Origin: an uncultured bacterium
Lineage (GTDB): Bacteria > Acidobacteriota > Aminicenantia > Aminicenantales > Saccharicenantaceae
Length of the DNA stretch: 64,000 nucleotides
Direction: 5' to 3'
Assembly (NCBI GenBank): GCA_937920515.1
Contig: CALEUG010000004.1
Span: 124,001 to 188,000 of the forward strand
Numbering within the stretch: position 1 is the first letter of the stretch; the number at the start of each line of letters is the position of its first letter. Below the pieces are notes generated by a model. The model saw only the letters and a program-made list of their open reading frames with translations. It did no database searches and had not been told where the DNA came from. A program made the position numbers and the translations under genes. This document shows positions 3,720 through 33,268 of this stretch, in pieces.

Positions 3720-4629
3720 CTTCTTCTTCCAGCCTTATTCCAGTAGTCTGCCAGACCTTTTCTTTGAGTTCAGCAGCCAGGGTTAAAACCTGGCGGGCGG
3801 TAGCCCCGCCCAGGTTAATTATGAAGTTGCAGTGACCCGGATAGACTGAGGCCTGTCCCACCCTCATTCCCCTGGCTCCGGCCTGCTCCAGAAGCTGCCC
3901 GGCCGGAATCTTGCACCCTCCTGGCAGCACCGGATTCTTGAAGTAACTGCCGGCGCAGGGGACCTGGCCCGGGGGATGCTTCCTGGCCCTTTGATTGAGA
4001 TAATCTTCCACCTTTTTGAGCATCTCCGGCCTGGACCCGGGTTCTACTTTAAGAGTGGCCCTGAGGATAATTTTATGGTCTTTTTTAAGGGAAGAATAAC
4101 GGTACTCGAAATGAAGTTCCTCCGGGCATAGGGTCTGTTCTTGCCCTTCACCATAAAGCACGGTTACCGCCAGTACCCGGTCCCCTATTGCCTGCCCAAA
4201 AGCCCCGGCATTGCCAAAAACGGCCCCGCCGACGGTGCCTGGAATCCCGGCCAGAAATTCCAGGCCGGCCAGTCCTTCCTGGATCGTCTGCCCGACCAGC
4301 TCGGACAGATGCGTTCCGCTGGCTACTTCCAGGCTGCCTTCCTCGGGCCGGAATTGCAGACCGGAAGCCGAATTTCTGATAACCAACCCGCGGTAACCGG
4401 CATCATCAAACAGAAGGTTGTAACCGCCGCCTATCACATAGAACGGGAAGTTGTATTTTCGGGCGGCTTTAACGGCCGCGGCCAGTTCGGTCAGATCGTG
4501 GACCTCAATAAAATAATCGGCTGGCCCGCCTATCCGGAAGCTGGAATAATCGGCCAGGGGTACTCTGCTGCTCAGAGACAGGCCTGTCTCCTCGAAAAAA
4601 ACCTGGCTGAAATCTTGAAACTCTTTCAT
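3685..4629 (-). CDS. murB: UDP-N-acetylenolpyruvoylglucosamine reductase
   Basis: MurB reduces the MurA product with NADPH through FAD to give UDP-MurNAc. This 314-residue protein shows S-S-F-R-I-G-G-P-A-D (29-38), the FAD-binding G-G-G-Y-N-L-L (67-73) and I-P-G-T-V-G-G-A-V (129-137). The catalytic serine sits in A-G-S-Y-F-K-N-P (S228) and the final glutamate lies near residue 302. It lacks the long extra loop of type I (E. coli) MurB, so it is type II. It lies on the opposite strand to murA, 1.7 kb away, and converges with the DUF2520 gene. A near-leaderless promoter is predicted just upstream. Confidence 0.96.
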   Translation of the reverse strand: MKEFQDFSQVFFEETGLSLSSRVPLADYSSFRIGGPADYFIEVHDLTELAAAVKAARKYNFPFYVIGGGYNLLFDDAGYRGLVIRNSASGLQFRPEEGSLEVASGTHLSELVGQTIQEGLAGLEFLAGIPGTVGGAVFGNAGAFGQAIGDRVLAVTVLYGEGQEQTLCPEELHFEYRYSSLKKDHKIILRATLKVEPGSRPEMLKKVEDYLNQRARKHPPGQVPCAGSYFKNPVLPGGCKIPAGQLLEQAGARGMRVGQASVYPGHCNFIINLGGATARQVLTLAAELKEKVWQTTGIRLEEEVIFVPADASML

Positions 4630-4642
4630 ATTTTTTATATTT

Positions 4643-4671
4643 ATTATATTGAATGGGCAAAATTAAGTCTA
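4643..4671 (-). promoter_or_regulatory. Predicted promoter of murB
   Basis: Read on the minus strand: TAGACT (4671-4666), a 17-bp spacer, then a perfect TATAAT (4648-4643), with only 13 nt to the ATG at 4629. The expected start point leaves a leader of about 6 nt, too short for a ribosome-binding site, and none is visible. Confidence 0.5.
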
Positions 4672-8089: not shown

Positions 8090-9547
8090 CTATTTCTTTT
8101 TCTTGAAAATTTTTGACAGGTCTAATTCCAGCAAGCCCTTCAGGCCGGTTTTTTTCTCCCCCTTTTCCAGTTCTGCCAGGGCTGCCCTTGCCTGGTGATG
8201 GTCGGGCTCGATTTCCAGGGCCTTCTGCAGGTGTTTCCTGGCTTTGATCTTTAAGCCTTCTCCCAGATAAAGCAGGCCCAGCCCGACATAGCCCTCGGCG
8301 TTCCATGGTTCCATTTCTATGGCCCGCAGGAAATCTTCCTCGGCTTTTTTCTTGTAGGCCGGCAACTTAGACTCGGCCATGGCCAGCAGCAGGTAATAAT
8401 CGGCCTTGGCCCTTTTCAGGCGAATGGCTTCTTCCAGAAATATGATGGCTTCTTCATACATTCCCTGGTTGTACAGGGTTCTACCCTGCCTGTACTTAAT
8501 CTCAGCTTTCCTGGCCAGGTCATCGGCCGTTTCCTGGGAAGGAGCCACCAGTTGCTGGTCATACTGCTTCCTTTTATCGGACTCACTCAACGTCCGGTAA
8601 GCTGTGGTAATGGCGTTGAAGACCTCGTTGACCAGGCCGTGGTCGGTCAGGGCCGTGTTGAACCGGTCGGGATGGTATTTTCTGGCCAGGTTGAAATAGG
8701 CTTTTTTAATTTCTTCCTCGTTGGCTACCCTGGAAACACCCAGCAGCTCGTAGTGGTTGCGCGTCCTCAGCTGGGATTTTATTTCCTTGAGCTCTTCAAT
8801 CCGGGCTTCCAGCTCGTCCTGCTCCAGCTTCCTGCGGCTCTCAGATGAATAATCATCTTTTCTGTAACTGGTATCGGCCGTAGACACTTCCACCATGTCC
8901 AGGCAATAGAACAGGTACAGGCAGCGGAAAAAATTCTCCTGGCTGAACCGGGCCGGAACGGCCATCCGGTCGATAACCTGGGGAGTGGAAAATCTTTCCA
9001 GCAGAGCTTTTTCCTCATCGGTCAGAAAATAGGCATAGCGGATATTCTTCAGGGCAATTTTGCGGCCGGCAAAAAACTTTTGCAGGCTGGAATTATATTT
9101 CATCCGCCGCAGCCCATAATCGATGATGAACGGGACATCGACCGCCGGCAGTTCTTCAGTCGGGGACTGAACTTCCCTCTCCTGAAAGCTGAGCTCGCCA
9201 TCGAAGTATGAAAAAATGCCCAGCAGGGACTCGCGAATCTGAAAACTCAGGGCTTCCCGCAGGTCGGCTTCCTTGATGACCCCGCCCCGTTTCAGGGATT
9301 CTCCCAGTGGCTGGTTGGGCTGGATGAAGTCTTCTATGTTCTGGAAGGTCTGATCCTGTATTTTCTGAAGCTTGAACAGGATTTCGCCCAGCCGCTCCGA
9401 CCTGACGTTTGTCTTGACCTGAATCGGCTTGCCCTTGATGAAGAAAAAATGCTTTTCTATTTCCTGGCGCTTGAAGGACAGACGCCCTGTCCGGCTGTTG
9501 AAGAATATCTCCTTCAGAAAAGCACCAACATGGTTTAACGAACTCAC
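8090..9547 (-). CDS. DUF4388-DnaJ-TPR fusion protein
   Basis: 485 residues in three parts. Residues 1-130 resemble DUF4388/PATAN, a domain often found in bacterial signalling proteins (G-R-L-S-F near 21, G-E-L-S-F near 117). Residues 264-331 are a complete J domain with the H-P-D tripeptide at 292-294, needed to stimulate DnaK ATPase. Residues 345-465 form about three TPR units, and the protein ends in a lysine run. No signal peptide or membrane segment is seen. It probably recruits Hsp70 to partners bound by the TPRs. The start is GTG at 9547 with AAGGG upstream. Domain calls are fairly sure, the role is not. Confidence 0.8.
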   Translation of the reverse strand: MSSLNHVGAFLKEIFFNSRTGRLSFKRQEIEKHFFFIKGKPIQVKTNVRSERLGEILFKLQKIQDQTFQNIEDFIQPNQPLGESLKRGGVIKEADLREALSFQIRESLLGIFSYFDGELSFQEREVQSPTEELPAVDVPFIIDYGLRRMKYNSSLQKFFAGRKIALKNIRYAYFLTDEEKALLERFSTPQVIDRMAVPARFSQENFFRCLYLFYCLDMVEVSTADTSYRKDDYSSESRRKLEQDELEARIEELKEIKSQLRTRNHYELLGVSRVANEEEIKKAYFNLARKYHPDRFNTALTDHGLVNEVFNAITTAYRTLSESDKRKQYDQQLVAPSQETADDLARKAEIKYRQGRTLYNQGMYEEAIIFLEEAIRLKRAKADYYLLLAMAESKLPAYKKKAEEDFLRAIEMEPWNAEGYVGLGLLYLGEGLKIKARKHLQKALEIEPDHHQARAALAELEKGEKKTGLKGLLELDLSKIFKKKK

Positions 9548-31223: not shown

Positions 31224-31315
31224 TACCGCCTGAAGCCATCATCCCAAATAATAAGAGTCCAGCTTCTCTCCGTCGGCAGGATAATCTCTTAAAATTTTGA
31301 AAAATACTGAAAGGA

Positions 31316-31570
31316 TTAAATTGCCTGAGGTCTTTCGCAGGTAATAGTATTCCAAAAACCAGTTTTGGGGTCTTTGGTACACTTAATCACACAATCCTGC
31401 CCTTCCCAACCCGATTGAGCCCCACATCCACCCTGGGTACAAGTTCCTGGAAAAACATCTTTGCAATAAATATCTCTCCCACCCGCCTGGCCAGAACCTA
31501 TGGCTACAAAAAGCATTACAAAGGACACACAAAAAAGAAAAATGACCATAAGAGACCTTAAGATTTTCAT
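31316..31570 (-). CDS. Small cysteine-rich secreted peptide
   Basis: 84 residues with a strong hydrophobic signal segment (residues 5-24) and a mature part of about 55 residues with six cysteines (C36, C44, C49, C60, C64, C78). These could form three disulphides outside the cytoplasm. The mature peptide has many glycines and several aromatic residues. I know no exact family. The arrangement recalls the small secreted NVEALA-type peptides found next to 6-bladed propeller genes in Bacteroides, but the NVEALA motif is absent. Its start overlaps the propeller gene's stop by 4 nt, so the two are translated together. The DNA is visibly A+T-richer than the surroundings. Confidence 0.65.
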   Translation of the reverse strand: MKILRSLMVIFLFCVSFVMLFVAIGSGQAGGRDIYCKDVFPGTCTQGGCGAQSGWEGQDCVIKCTKDPKTGFWNTITCERPQAI

Positions 31571-32628
31571 CTTAAACCCTCCTTTTTATACTTTTGAAAT
31601 ATCCCTATCATAAAAGCTCCATTGGTTTTGCCTTGAAAAGAAACGGCAAATGAAATGCTATTTTTTTCATTCGAGGGAATTAGCCTAACCATTTCAGGAT
31701 AAATATTATCAGGCAGAATTATTCTTTCTCTTATCTCTAGGGATTTTTTGTCGACAACCAGAACTTCATACACGTCGCCGGTTACATATCCTAACATTAA
31801 AAGATATAAATAACCCCCGTCAAGACAGGCATCACCGAAAATCCTCCAATTCGTAACAGTTCCGTCGCTATTCTTCTTTACTCCCTTTTCAAAGAATATT
31901 TTTCTGTATTGCTCCCGATATTTTTCAAGATTCCCCGGTCCGGATAACTTTTTTTCCAATATTAGCAAGCCAGAGAGATCATATACTCTGATCTCTCCAA
32001 ATAAATAAGAAACATAATAAACATAGTTTCCATCAAATAATGCAGCTCCATCATTCGCAATGCGGTCCAGCAAACCAGGCGCAATTTCTTTGCTTAAAGA
32101 ATAATCCAAATCATATTTCTGGCCGATTGAGTTAATTCTTTGACCCTGATAATCATAAAGCCCTATCAGGTCTTGTTTCCCTGGAATCGGTTCCAACACC
32201 GCTATCCTTCCATGGGCAGCATCAAAATTAAGAATTCCGGTGAACGTCCTGACCCTCCGGATGAAACTTCCCTGCGGATCATACATAACTATTCCTGTAT
32301 TATCTTTTACAAATATCAGGCCTGTGCTTTTATCAACGGAAATATTAGCCGGCCACTGTAATTCTCCCGGCCCCTGGCCCCACCTTCCAAAGTTAGCCAA
32401 AAGCTCTCCATCTCTATTGAATTTAAATACCGTATGTTCTCTATTATCCACCGCATAAATTAAGCCTTCTTTATCCACGTCAATCTTAGGAAGTGTCTTA
32501 AAATAAATGCTCTGTTGGGGAAAATAAGCGGTCAATTTGACTGTTGTAACTTCTATCCTTTTAGACTCATTCGACCACAAAAACAAAAGGGGCAAAATGC
32601 AAATCCCGATTACAGATAATTTTTTCAT
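31567..32628 (-). CDS. 6-bladed beta-propeller protein, exported
   Basis: 353 residues with an N-terminal hydrophobic export signal (residues 5-18) and NHL-like repeats: D-V-D-K-E-G-L-I-Y-A-V-D, V-F-K-F-N-R-D-G-E-L-L, F-G-R-W-G-Q-G-P-G-E-L, V-K-D-N-T-G-I-V-M-Y-D. The G-x-G-P-G-E-L turn is typical of the 6-bladed propeller families common in Bacteroidota and Aminicenantes. It probably binds a ligand at the cell surface or in the periplasm; no catalytic residue is evident. It is the middle gene of three without gaps: it begins immediately after the membrane-protein stop and overlaps the peptide gene. Codon choice is A+T-leaning. Confidence 0.8.
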   Translation of the reverse strand: MKKLSVIGICILPLLFLWSNESKRIEVTTVKLTAYFPQQSIYFKTLPKIDVDKEGLIYAVDNREHTVFKFNRDGELLANFGRWGQGPGELQWPANISVDKSTGLIFVKDNTGIVMYDPQGSFIRRVRTFTGILNFDAAHGRIAVLEPIPGKQDLIGLYDYQGQRINSIGQKYDLDYSLSKEIAPGLLDRIANDGAALFDGNYVYYVSYLFGEIRVYDLSGLLILEKKLSGPGNLEKYREQYRKIFFEKGVKKNSDGTVTNWRIFGDACLDGGYLYLLMLGYVTGDVYEVLVVDKKSLEIRERIILPDNIYPEMVRLIPSNEKNSISFAVSFQGKTNGAFMIGIFQKYKKEGLR

Positions 32629-33156
32629 TCAAAAACCCTTTATGTTAACGATTTGGCCATTAATGACAAATATAAAGAAGTTCAGATTAACATTCCACGT
32701 ATTCTTATTGCATTTTAAGTAGGCAGAATACCATTCATCATCCATTCGTCCTATATCAACCGGTCCGTCAATGTTAAATACTCTTCTGAAATTTTGAATG
32801 TCAGCATCGCTGTGATCGGGGGTGAATAAAAATATTATCCTTAAATCAGGATACATTTTTATCGTTTCATAATCGACCAAAGGACGGCAGGTCATATTCA
32901 AGTAATAAATTAAATAAATGGCTGAATTATTATAATATTCCGGTTTTTTTCTAATAATCTTTGAAATGCTATTCTTACAACCAAAGCCCTTCCCTTTATG
33001 ATAAAAAAGGTATGTCGAGGTCAAGATGGTAAATATTGCGATTAAGAGGAAGACCGTTTCAATTTTTGAAAGCTTCTTCTTATCCCCATTTCTTCGTACC
33101 CTTAATTTTGCGATCTTGCCGACTACGTTACTTCTATAGGTTAAAAAAAAAAACAT
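32629..33156 (-). CDS. Membrane-anchored protein of the propeller cassette, possibly thioredoxin-like
   Basis: 175 residues if started at the ATG at 33156; a GTG at 33186 would add 10. A basic N-terminus precedes one transmembrane segment (V-F-L-L-I-A-I-F-T-I-L-T), followed by an extracytoplasmic domain. D-L-R-I-I-F-L-F-T-P-D-H-S-D near the middle and a final strand F-F-I-F-V-I-N-G-Q-I-V vaguely resemble a redoxin fold without the C-x-x-C centre. That reading is a guess. Directly after the ATG comes an 11-base homopolymer (plus-strand A's, 33143-33153), so length errors or slippage could affect the N-terminus. It is the first gene of the three-gene cassette. Confidence 0.6.
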   Translation of the reverse strand: MFFFLTYRSNVVGKIAKLRVRRNGDKKKLSKIETVFLLIAIFTILTSTYLFYHKGKGFGCKNSISKIIRKKPEYYNNSAIYLIYYLNMTCRPLVDYETIKMYPDLRIIFLFTPDHSDADIQNFRRVFNIDGPVDIGRMDDEWYSAYLKCNKNTWNVNLNFFIFVINGQIVNIKGF

Positions 33157-33233
33157 CTTTGTCAAGAGGGGAGTTTCAGTTAGCACAGCAGTTTTTAATA
33201 CCCATCCGGAAGCGTATTGACCTCAGCCTGGCG

Positions 33234-33262
33234 TTGAAACACCAACAGTCGTCTGCTAAAAT
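33234..33262 (+). promoter_or_regulatory. Predicted leaderless promoter of guaA
   Basis: TTGAAA (33234-33239), 17 bp and TAAAAT (33257-33262), then exactly 6 nt before the ATG at 33269, with no ribosome-binding site. This is the clearest match to the layout seen at murA. Confidence 0.55.
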
Positions 33263-33268
33263 CTGTTT

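Follow-up and report, generated by a model that had tools for sequence, protein, structure and literature searches.

A conserved and horizontally transferred three-gene cassette of Aminicenantia encodes an exported cysteine-rich peptide, a beta-propeller and a probable thioredoxin-like membrane protein

In methylamine dehydrogenase, MauA is a cysteine-rich small subunit with a conserved pair of tryptophans, MauB is a propeller, and MauD is a thioredoxin-like membrane protein. In Bacteroides, small exported cysteine-containing peptides of the NVEALA type adjoin six-bladed propellers. Here, we describe a cassette of three genes encoding a membrane protein (named T), a propeller and a small cysteine-rich exported peptide. 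It lies in a stretch of 64,000 nucleotides from an uncultured bacterium of the class Aminicenantia (assembly GCA_937920515.1, contig CALEUG010000004.1, positions 124,001 to 188,000; referred to as the window). The same triad is conserved in other genomes of the class, and the cassette moved recently between species as one block. We read it, with a confidence that falls slightly short of even, as a module in which a secreted disulphide peptide has a thiol protein of its own and a propeller as its partner, comparable to MauA, MauD and MauB, respectively.

Both MauE and MauD take part in the maturation of methylamine dehydrogenase; MauE is presumed to make disulphides, and what MauD does is described as unclear (PMC7794033). 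The same paper presents candidate clusters for ribosomally synthesized and post-translationally modified peptides (RiPPs) of Streptomyces, found by decRiPPter, in which a small precursor with at least eight cysteines lies next to mauE homologues, in one family also mauD, without the other mau genes (PMC7794033). The placing of a small cysteine-rich precursor beside mauE- or mauD-type genes recalls the window's cassette. However, these clusters belong to another phylum, the sections of that paper that present them mention no propeller, and the window peptide has six cysteines and a signal sequence. Among the open-licence papers listed by the searches, none dealt with the system described here, and one mentioned a propeller and TlpA, in separate table entries.

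The three genes (Table 1) are packed as the initial annotation had proposed, at the coordinates that it gave: the stop codon of T adjoins the ATG of the propeller gene, and the propeller stop and the peptide ATG overlap by 4 nt. Its remark that the cassette is richer in A+T than its flanks was borne out by the analysis of base composition. The G+C content is 33.5% in T, 38.2% in the propeller gene and 42.4% in the peptide gene, compared with 47.2% in hypA, 51.2% in hypB, 54.3% in guaA, 56.1% in the gene of the hydrogenase large subunit and a mean of 54.4% for the whole window. At third codon positions (GC3), the values are 39%, 36% and 35%, respectively, against 56–73% in the same four neighbours. 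The host (assembly of 2.56 Mb) is near Candidatus Saccharicenans subterraneus, and its propeller is 96% identical to that of strain BY38. Between the window and BY38, the ratio of nonsynonymous to synonymous divergence (dN/dS) takes values of 0.27 (T) and 0.23 (propeller). Because of these values, and because the same three tightly packed genes recur in other genomes, the packing exceeds chance. The description of all three products as exported or membrane-bound agrees with their hydrophobic N-termini; these N-termini, and no predictor, are the basis for calling the propeller and the peptide exported and for giving T a single membrane segment. A scan for promoters and terminators gave nothing better than shuffled sequence.

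Table 1. Positions of the cassette genes and of their insertion site within the window.
Feature	Position	Strand	Description
Gene T (membrane protein)	32629–33186	-	Listed open reading frame starts with GTG; N-terminal membrane segment and probable thioredoxin-like domain
Propeller gene	31567–32628	-	Six-bladed NHL-type beta-propeller with signal sequence; PF17170
Peptide gene	31316–31570	-	84 aa, exported; six mature cysteines
Insertion site (hypA–guaA intergenic region)	31224–33268	n/a	Between the end of hypA (31223) and the start of guaA (33269)

The search of 142 genomes of the class found T in 18 of them, at 24 places (two fragments joined). Within 3.5 kb of T, a propeller is present at 23 of the 24 places and a peptide at 18, the window being included in both counts. 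The sole place without a propeller (G012) ends at a contig edge. At 10 of the 23 non-window places, the propeller had itself gone into building the search profile, and at three it survives as a decayed piece (G037:C10, G009:C10 and G037:C8, the last at E 4e-4). The six places without a peptide comprise two contig ends (G019 and G012), two decayed loci (G009:C10 and G037:C8, the latter holding a broken peptide match) and two places where no peptide was recognised (G069 and G111). Profile A2 for the peptide had been built with 9 of the 17 non-window peptides and detected 7 more that were not part of it; that of G098 was found only by profile A5, which itself contains it. The gene order varies, from T–propeller–peptide in the window to peptide–propeller–T in the loci L037 and L088. 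The triad is conserved; the recurrence of the peptide beside propellers, which had been named as a check, and the view of the three genes as one unit are both upheld by these counts. In phylum samples (396 genomes), outside the class, the T profile gave no match at 1e-4 and the peptide profile gave seven at E 0.003–0.009. Pattern scans of viral contigs yielded no confirmed relative of the peptide or T, and a scan of PHROGs gave nothing convincing.

Small operons with overlapping starts are common, and ordinary neighbours without a shared function might have come together by chance. We consider this extremely improbable, as the triad is conserved at several unrelated sites and is transferred as one block, and the co-occurrence counts already contradict chance.

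The window aligns with BY38 over its full 64 kb. Identity is 97.1% in the cassette and 87.0% in the remainder; the 68 bins of 900 bp outside the cassette average 87.1%, with a maximum of 93.1%, and none of the 68 reaches 96%. In finer bins, positions 31250–33049 are 94–99% identical and the flanking 150-bp bins are 72–94% identical (a range that excludes the last bin, which holds a single aligned base); the block of low divergence coincides with the cassette. The synonymous divergence (dS) is 0.077 for T, 0.079 for the propeller and 0.019 for the peptide, and 0.51–0.96 for four flanking genes. A match to hypA was found in 16 of the 19 genomes of the genus, at 17 places. Empty sites are present in G011, G008 and G003, where hypA is followed by guaA after 191–201 bp with no cassette. 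The gap between the two genes is 403 bp in G015, with a peptide remnant, and consists of 960 and 1243 bp of other sequence in G006 and G002, respectively; at seven hypA places, neither guaA nor a cassette is found within the 1.5 kb viewed. At the locus L026 (G009:C11), hypA and a partial copy of it (4395–4643 and 8118–8366; 249 nt, 97% identical) enclose the cassette, together with a remnant of an IS110-type transposase. In G003 and G017, the region upstream of the cassette has remnants of Mutator and ISL3 transposases.

As a block of 97% identity stands in a background of 87%, empty sites exist and transposase remnants lie beside other copies, we conclude that the cassette moved recently between species as one block, in line with the transfer that the initial annotation had suggested; elsewhere it occupies different sites. 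The transfer perhaps took place by recombination across the shared flanks. Precise site-specific integration was rejected, since the junctions show no shared attachment site readable by eye. A second shared insertion spot, holding a broken T or a whole cassette, was seen at L032 (G012:C69, 5525–5876) and L028 (G015:C3, 6003–7735); it follows a long gene that resembles, by eye, that of the DNA polymerase III alpha subunit.

T had been annotated as a membrane protein different from those of the Bacteroides loci. Its membrane character stands, and the comparison of profiles now indicates that it is probably a diverged thioredoxin-fold thiol protein. Most close orthologues begin near residue 25, and T itself probably starts some 24 codons after the listed GTG. 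Cys100 is invariant in 11 aligned members; the motif at this position is CRPC in four of them, CRPL in the window and two others, and neither in the rest. A CxxC motif including the invariant cysteine is present in 10 of 19 aligned T members and absent from the window's T, the second active-site cysteine being lacking in this lineage. Against seven redoxin-like proteins, six encoded next to propellers and one stand-alone, the T profile matched with Prob 66% and P 5.6e-5, and the T domain alone with Prob 29.5% and P 5.7e-4. The score of the domain was 27.1, while the best of 40 column shuffles reached 13.9, and the invariant cysteine aligns with the first cysteine of CxxC in the printed profile alignment. 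Six CxxC proteins of sister cassettes beside propellers in the same genus were also scanned: that of L040 matched AhpC-TSA (E 6e-13), those of L181 (E 2e-5) and L188 stayed below the cut-off, and those of L039, L198 and L205 gave no thioredoxin match. The AlphaFold model of T, built from three input sequences, was too poor to decide the fold (pLDDT 51.0), and a fold search for T gave no decision and was not used as proof. The comparison of T with the sequences in the PDB gave six chance-level rows (E 0.99 or more), and T had no match in Pfam.

The peptide has one cysteine in its signal sequence and six after it (Cys36, 44, 49, 60, 64 and 78), matching the six mature cysteines initially described. 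With the signal sequence cut at a site that is our own reading, the mature peptide has a net charge of 0. All 11 close members share the six cysteines and a GGC motif, and 10 of them keep G54-W55. In a wider set of 18 peptides, five of the six cysteines are present in all members and no tryptophan is conserved. Scans of Pfam, NCBIfam and PHROGs gave no convincing family match for the peptide, its profile found nothing among PDB sequences, and the AlphaFold model from three input sequences was too poor for use (pLDDT 60.6). Compared with BY38, the peptide has a dN of 0.036 and a dS of 0.019, a ratio of 1.9. Because no more than seven residue differences underlie this ratio (four lie in the signal sequence, three in the mature part), no claim of positive selection is made.

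The window's cassette resembles the Bacteroides loci in having a small exported cysteine-containing peptide beside a six-bladed propeller, but the peptide is not of the NVEALA family as judged by profile. The NVEALA motif is absent, as had been noticed at the outset, and PF14055 matched neither the window peptide at E up to 10 nor five related peptides at E up to 1. At E 0.01, this family was found in 0 of 21 genomes of the group, the control, Bacteroides ihuae, being positive. The single Parabacteroides propeller that was seen adjoins SusC/SusD-type genes.

The six-bladed NHL-type propeller of the initial annotation was confirmed: the protein is a member of PF17170 (40 bits, with a curated cut-off of 22.9), and NHL-domain structures match its profile A3. 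The plasmid search gave five weak partial matches to the propeller. The genus is rich in such propellers, each genome giving 1 to 22 matches at E 1e-6. Forty regions that surround other propellers of the genus were compared with 20 control regions. Cysteine-rich exported open reading frames (ORFs) were present in 8 of the 40 (10 peptides) and in 0 of the 20, and CxxC proteins with a hydrophobic N-terminus were present in 5 of the 40 and 1 of the 20; this comparison is rough, as the 40 regions were hand-picked from the upper part of the list of propeller matches, one of them having no propeller ORF, and the controls came from four genomes only. The window's propeller belongs to PF17170 by score but differs from most of its relatives in the genus, 32 of the 40 sampled regions having no cysteine-rich exported peptide. 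Both this proportion and the abundance of the propellers would suit a surface complex that binds a nutrient or glycan, with the peptide as a disulphide-stabilised structural subunit. We regard such a complex as unlikely, since by eye no neighbour recurs besides the three genes and sometimes MauE, the neighbours having mostly not been searched against families.

Sister cassettes of similar layout were found in the host genome and in the genus. In the host, L039 and L040 have the order cysteine-rich exported peptide, propeller and CxxC protein. L042 (G000:C15, 7424–7702 and its neighbours) contains a cysteine-rich peptide gene, a propeller seemingly in pieces and a CRTC-containing protein, and looks like a broken example of the same layout. 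The similarity of eleven sister peptides to the window family is weak at most (best scores of 8.0 bits with A2 and 14.8 with A5), a distant relation being possible; the spacing C-x3-C-x6-C was seen by eye in three of the eleven. Near a propeller cassette, L198 (G003:C23, 5112–5587) has two adjoining small exported peptides with short cysteine-rich tails. At L169 (4036–4281), an exported ORF of 81 aa with 10 cysteines after residue 25 lies directly behind a propeller. L085 (G099:C174, 1–18001) holds several propeller-like ORFs, cysteine-rich peptides and CxxC proteins, with T-type cassettes on both strands.

The mau cluster (MauB, MauE, MauD and MauA) shares with the window the combination of a propeller, a small cysteine-rich exported subunit and a membrane thioredoxin-like protein, and at L031, L088 and L090 MauE itself (PF07291, E about 1e-25) adjoins the cassette. 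The differences are that MauE is not beside the window cassette (at E 1e-5, PF07291 matches the host genome once, on contig C2, and the window is on C4), that T is often without CxxC, that the peptides have no conserved tryptophan and that no heavy-chain family of methylamine dehydrogenase was listed for the propeller in the Pfam and NCBIfam scans. The last two bear on whether the cassette might encode a small enzyme like an amine dehydrogenase, with the propeller as its heavy subunit and the peptide as a catalytic small subunit carrying a tryptophan-derived quinone. Such an enzyme is suggested by the gene set, which recalls mauB, mauA, mauD and mauE, and by W55 of the close peptides. We consider it very unlikely; the propeller is of PF17170, and a tryptophan-derived quinone is improbable because no tryptophan is conserved in the 18 peptides.

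In the disulphide-peptide module that we tentatively prefer, the three horizontally exchanged genes would make one secreted disulphide-bonded peptide, exported by its signal sequence. T would be anchored in the inner membrane with its thioredoxin-like domain outside and would handle the cysteines of the peptide, forming, shuffling or holding their bonds; in the window's lineage, only one active-site cysteine would be available to it. The propeller, also exported, would bind the peptide as a partner, carrier or receptor. The labour would be split as among the cysteine-rich MauA, the propeller MauB and the thioredoxin-like MauD, sometimes with MauE too. That a secreted cysteine-rich peptide, a probable thiol protein directed to the same compartment and an exported propeller travel together suggests both the handling of disulphides by T and the binding of the peptide by the propeller, and the handling of disulphides is the likely link because T is probably a thioredoxin-fold thiol protein. 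We infer disulphide formation, contacts of T and of the propeller with the peptide, and an extracellular role from this arrangement. Three results weigh against the module: smaller redoxin sets matched T more weakly (P 0.017–0.074), neither T nor seven scanned relatives matched the thioredoxin clan of Pfam, which weakens the thioredoxin relation, and MauE is present in 100 of the 142 class genomes, so that its mere presence carries little weight.

The mobility of the cassette and the exchange of peptides favour a role between cells. The cassette could be a peptide system acting between bacteria (bacteriocin-like, for kin recognition or as a signal), in which the propeller or T would serve as the receptor or immunity protein; this is compatible with the disulphide-peptide module and adds a purpose to it. 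It fits the patchy spread (the peptide profile matches in 14 of 142 class genomes), the recent transfer, the broken or decayed copies (G015:C29, G009:C10, G037:C8 and G037:C10) and the several peptide types found in one layout. However, the neutral charge of the mature peptide argues against a classical cationic antimicrobial, its mature part holds just three of the seven differences from BY38, none of the three proteins matched the PADLOC profiles of anti-phage defence, and no fourth gene that could confer immunity is packed with the three. We therefore see this system as a minor possibility. More broadly, Aminicenantia may have mobile peptide cassettes that move between species at favoured sites. 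Secreted disulphide peptides of several folds would be swapped while the layout is kept, every peptide would have a thioredoxin-like maturation protein and a propeller to itself, and the cassettes would act between cells in recognition, signalling or antagonism; we consider this rather unlikely.

No job is otherwise known for the propellers of this genus; the triad links some of these with a small peptide rich in cysteines and with what is probably a thiol protein. It turns the function of the propeller into two testable questions, namely whether T sets the disulphides of the peptide and whether the propeller binds it. If the answer to both is yes, the cassette would represent a disulphide-peptide system in bacteria known chiefly from metagenomes.
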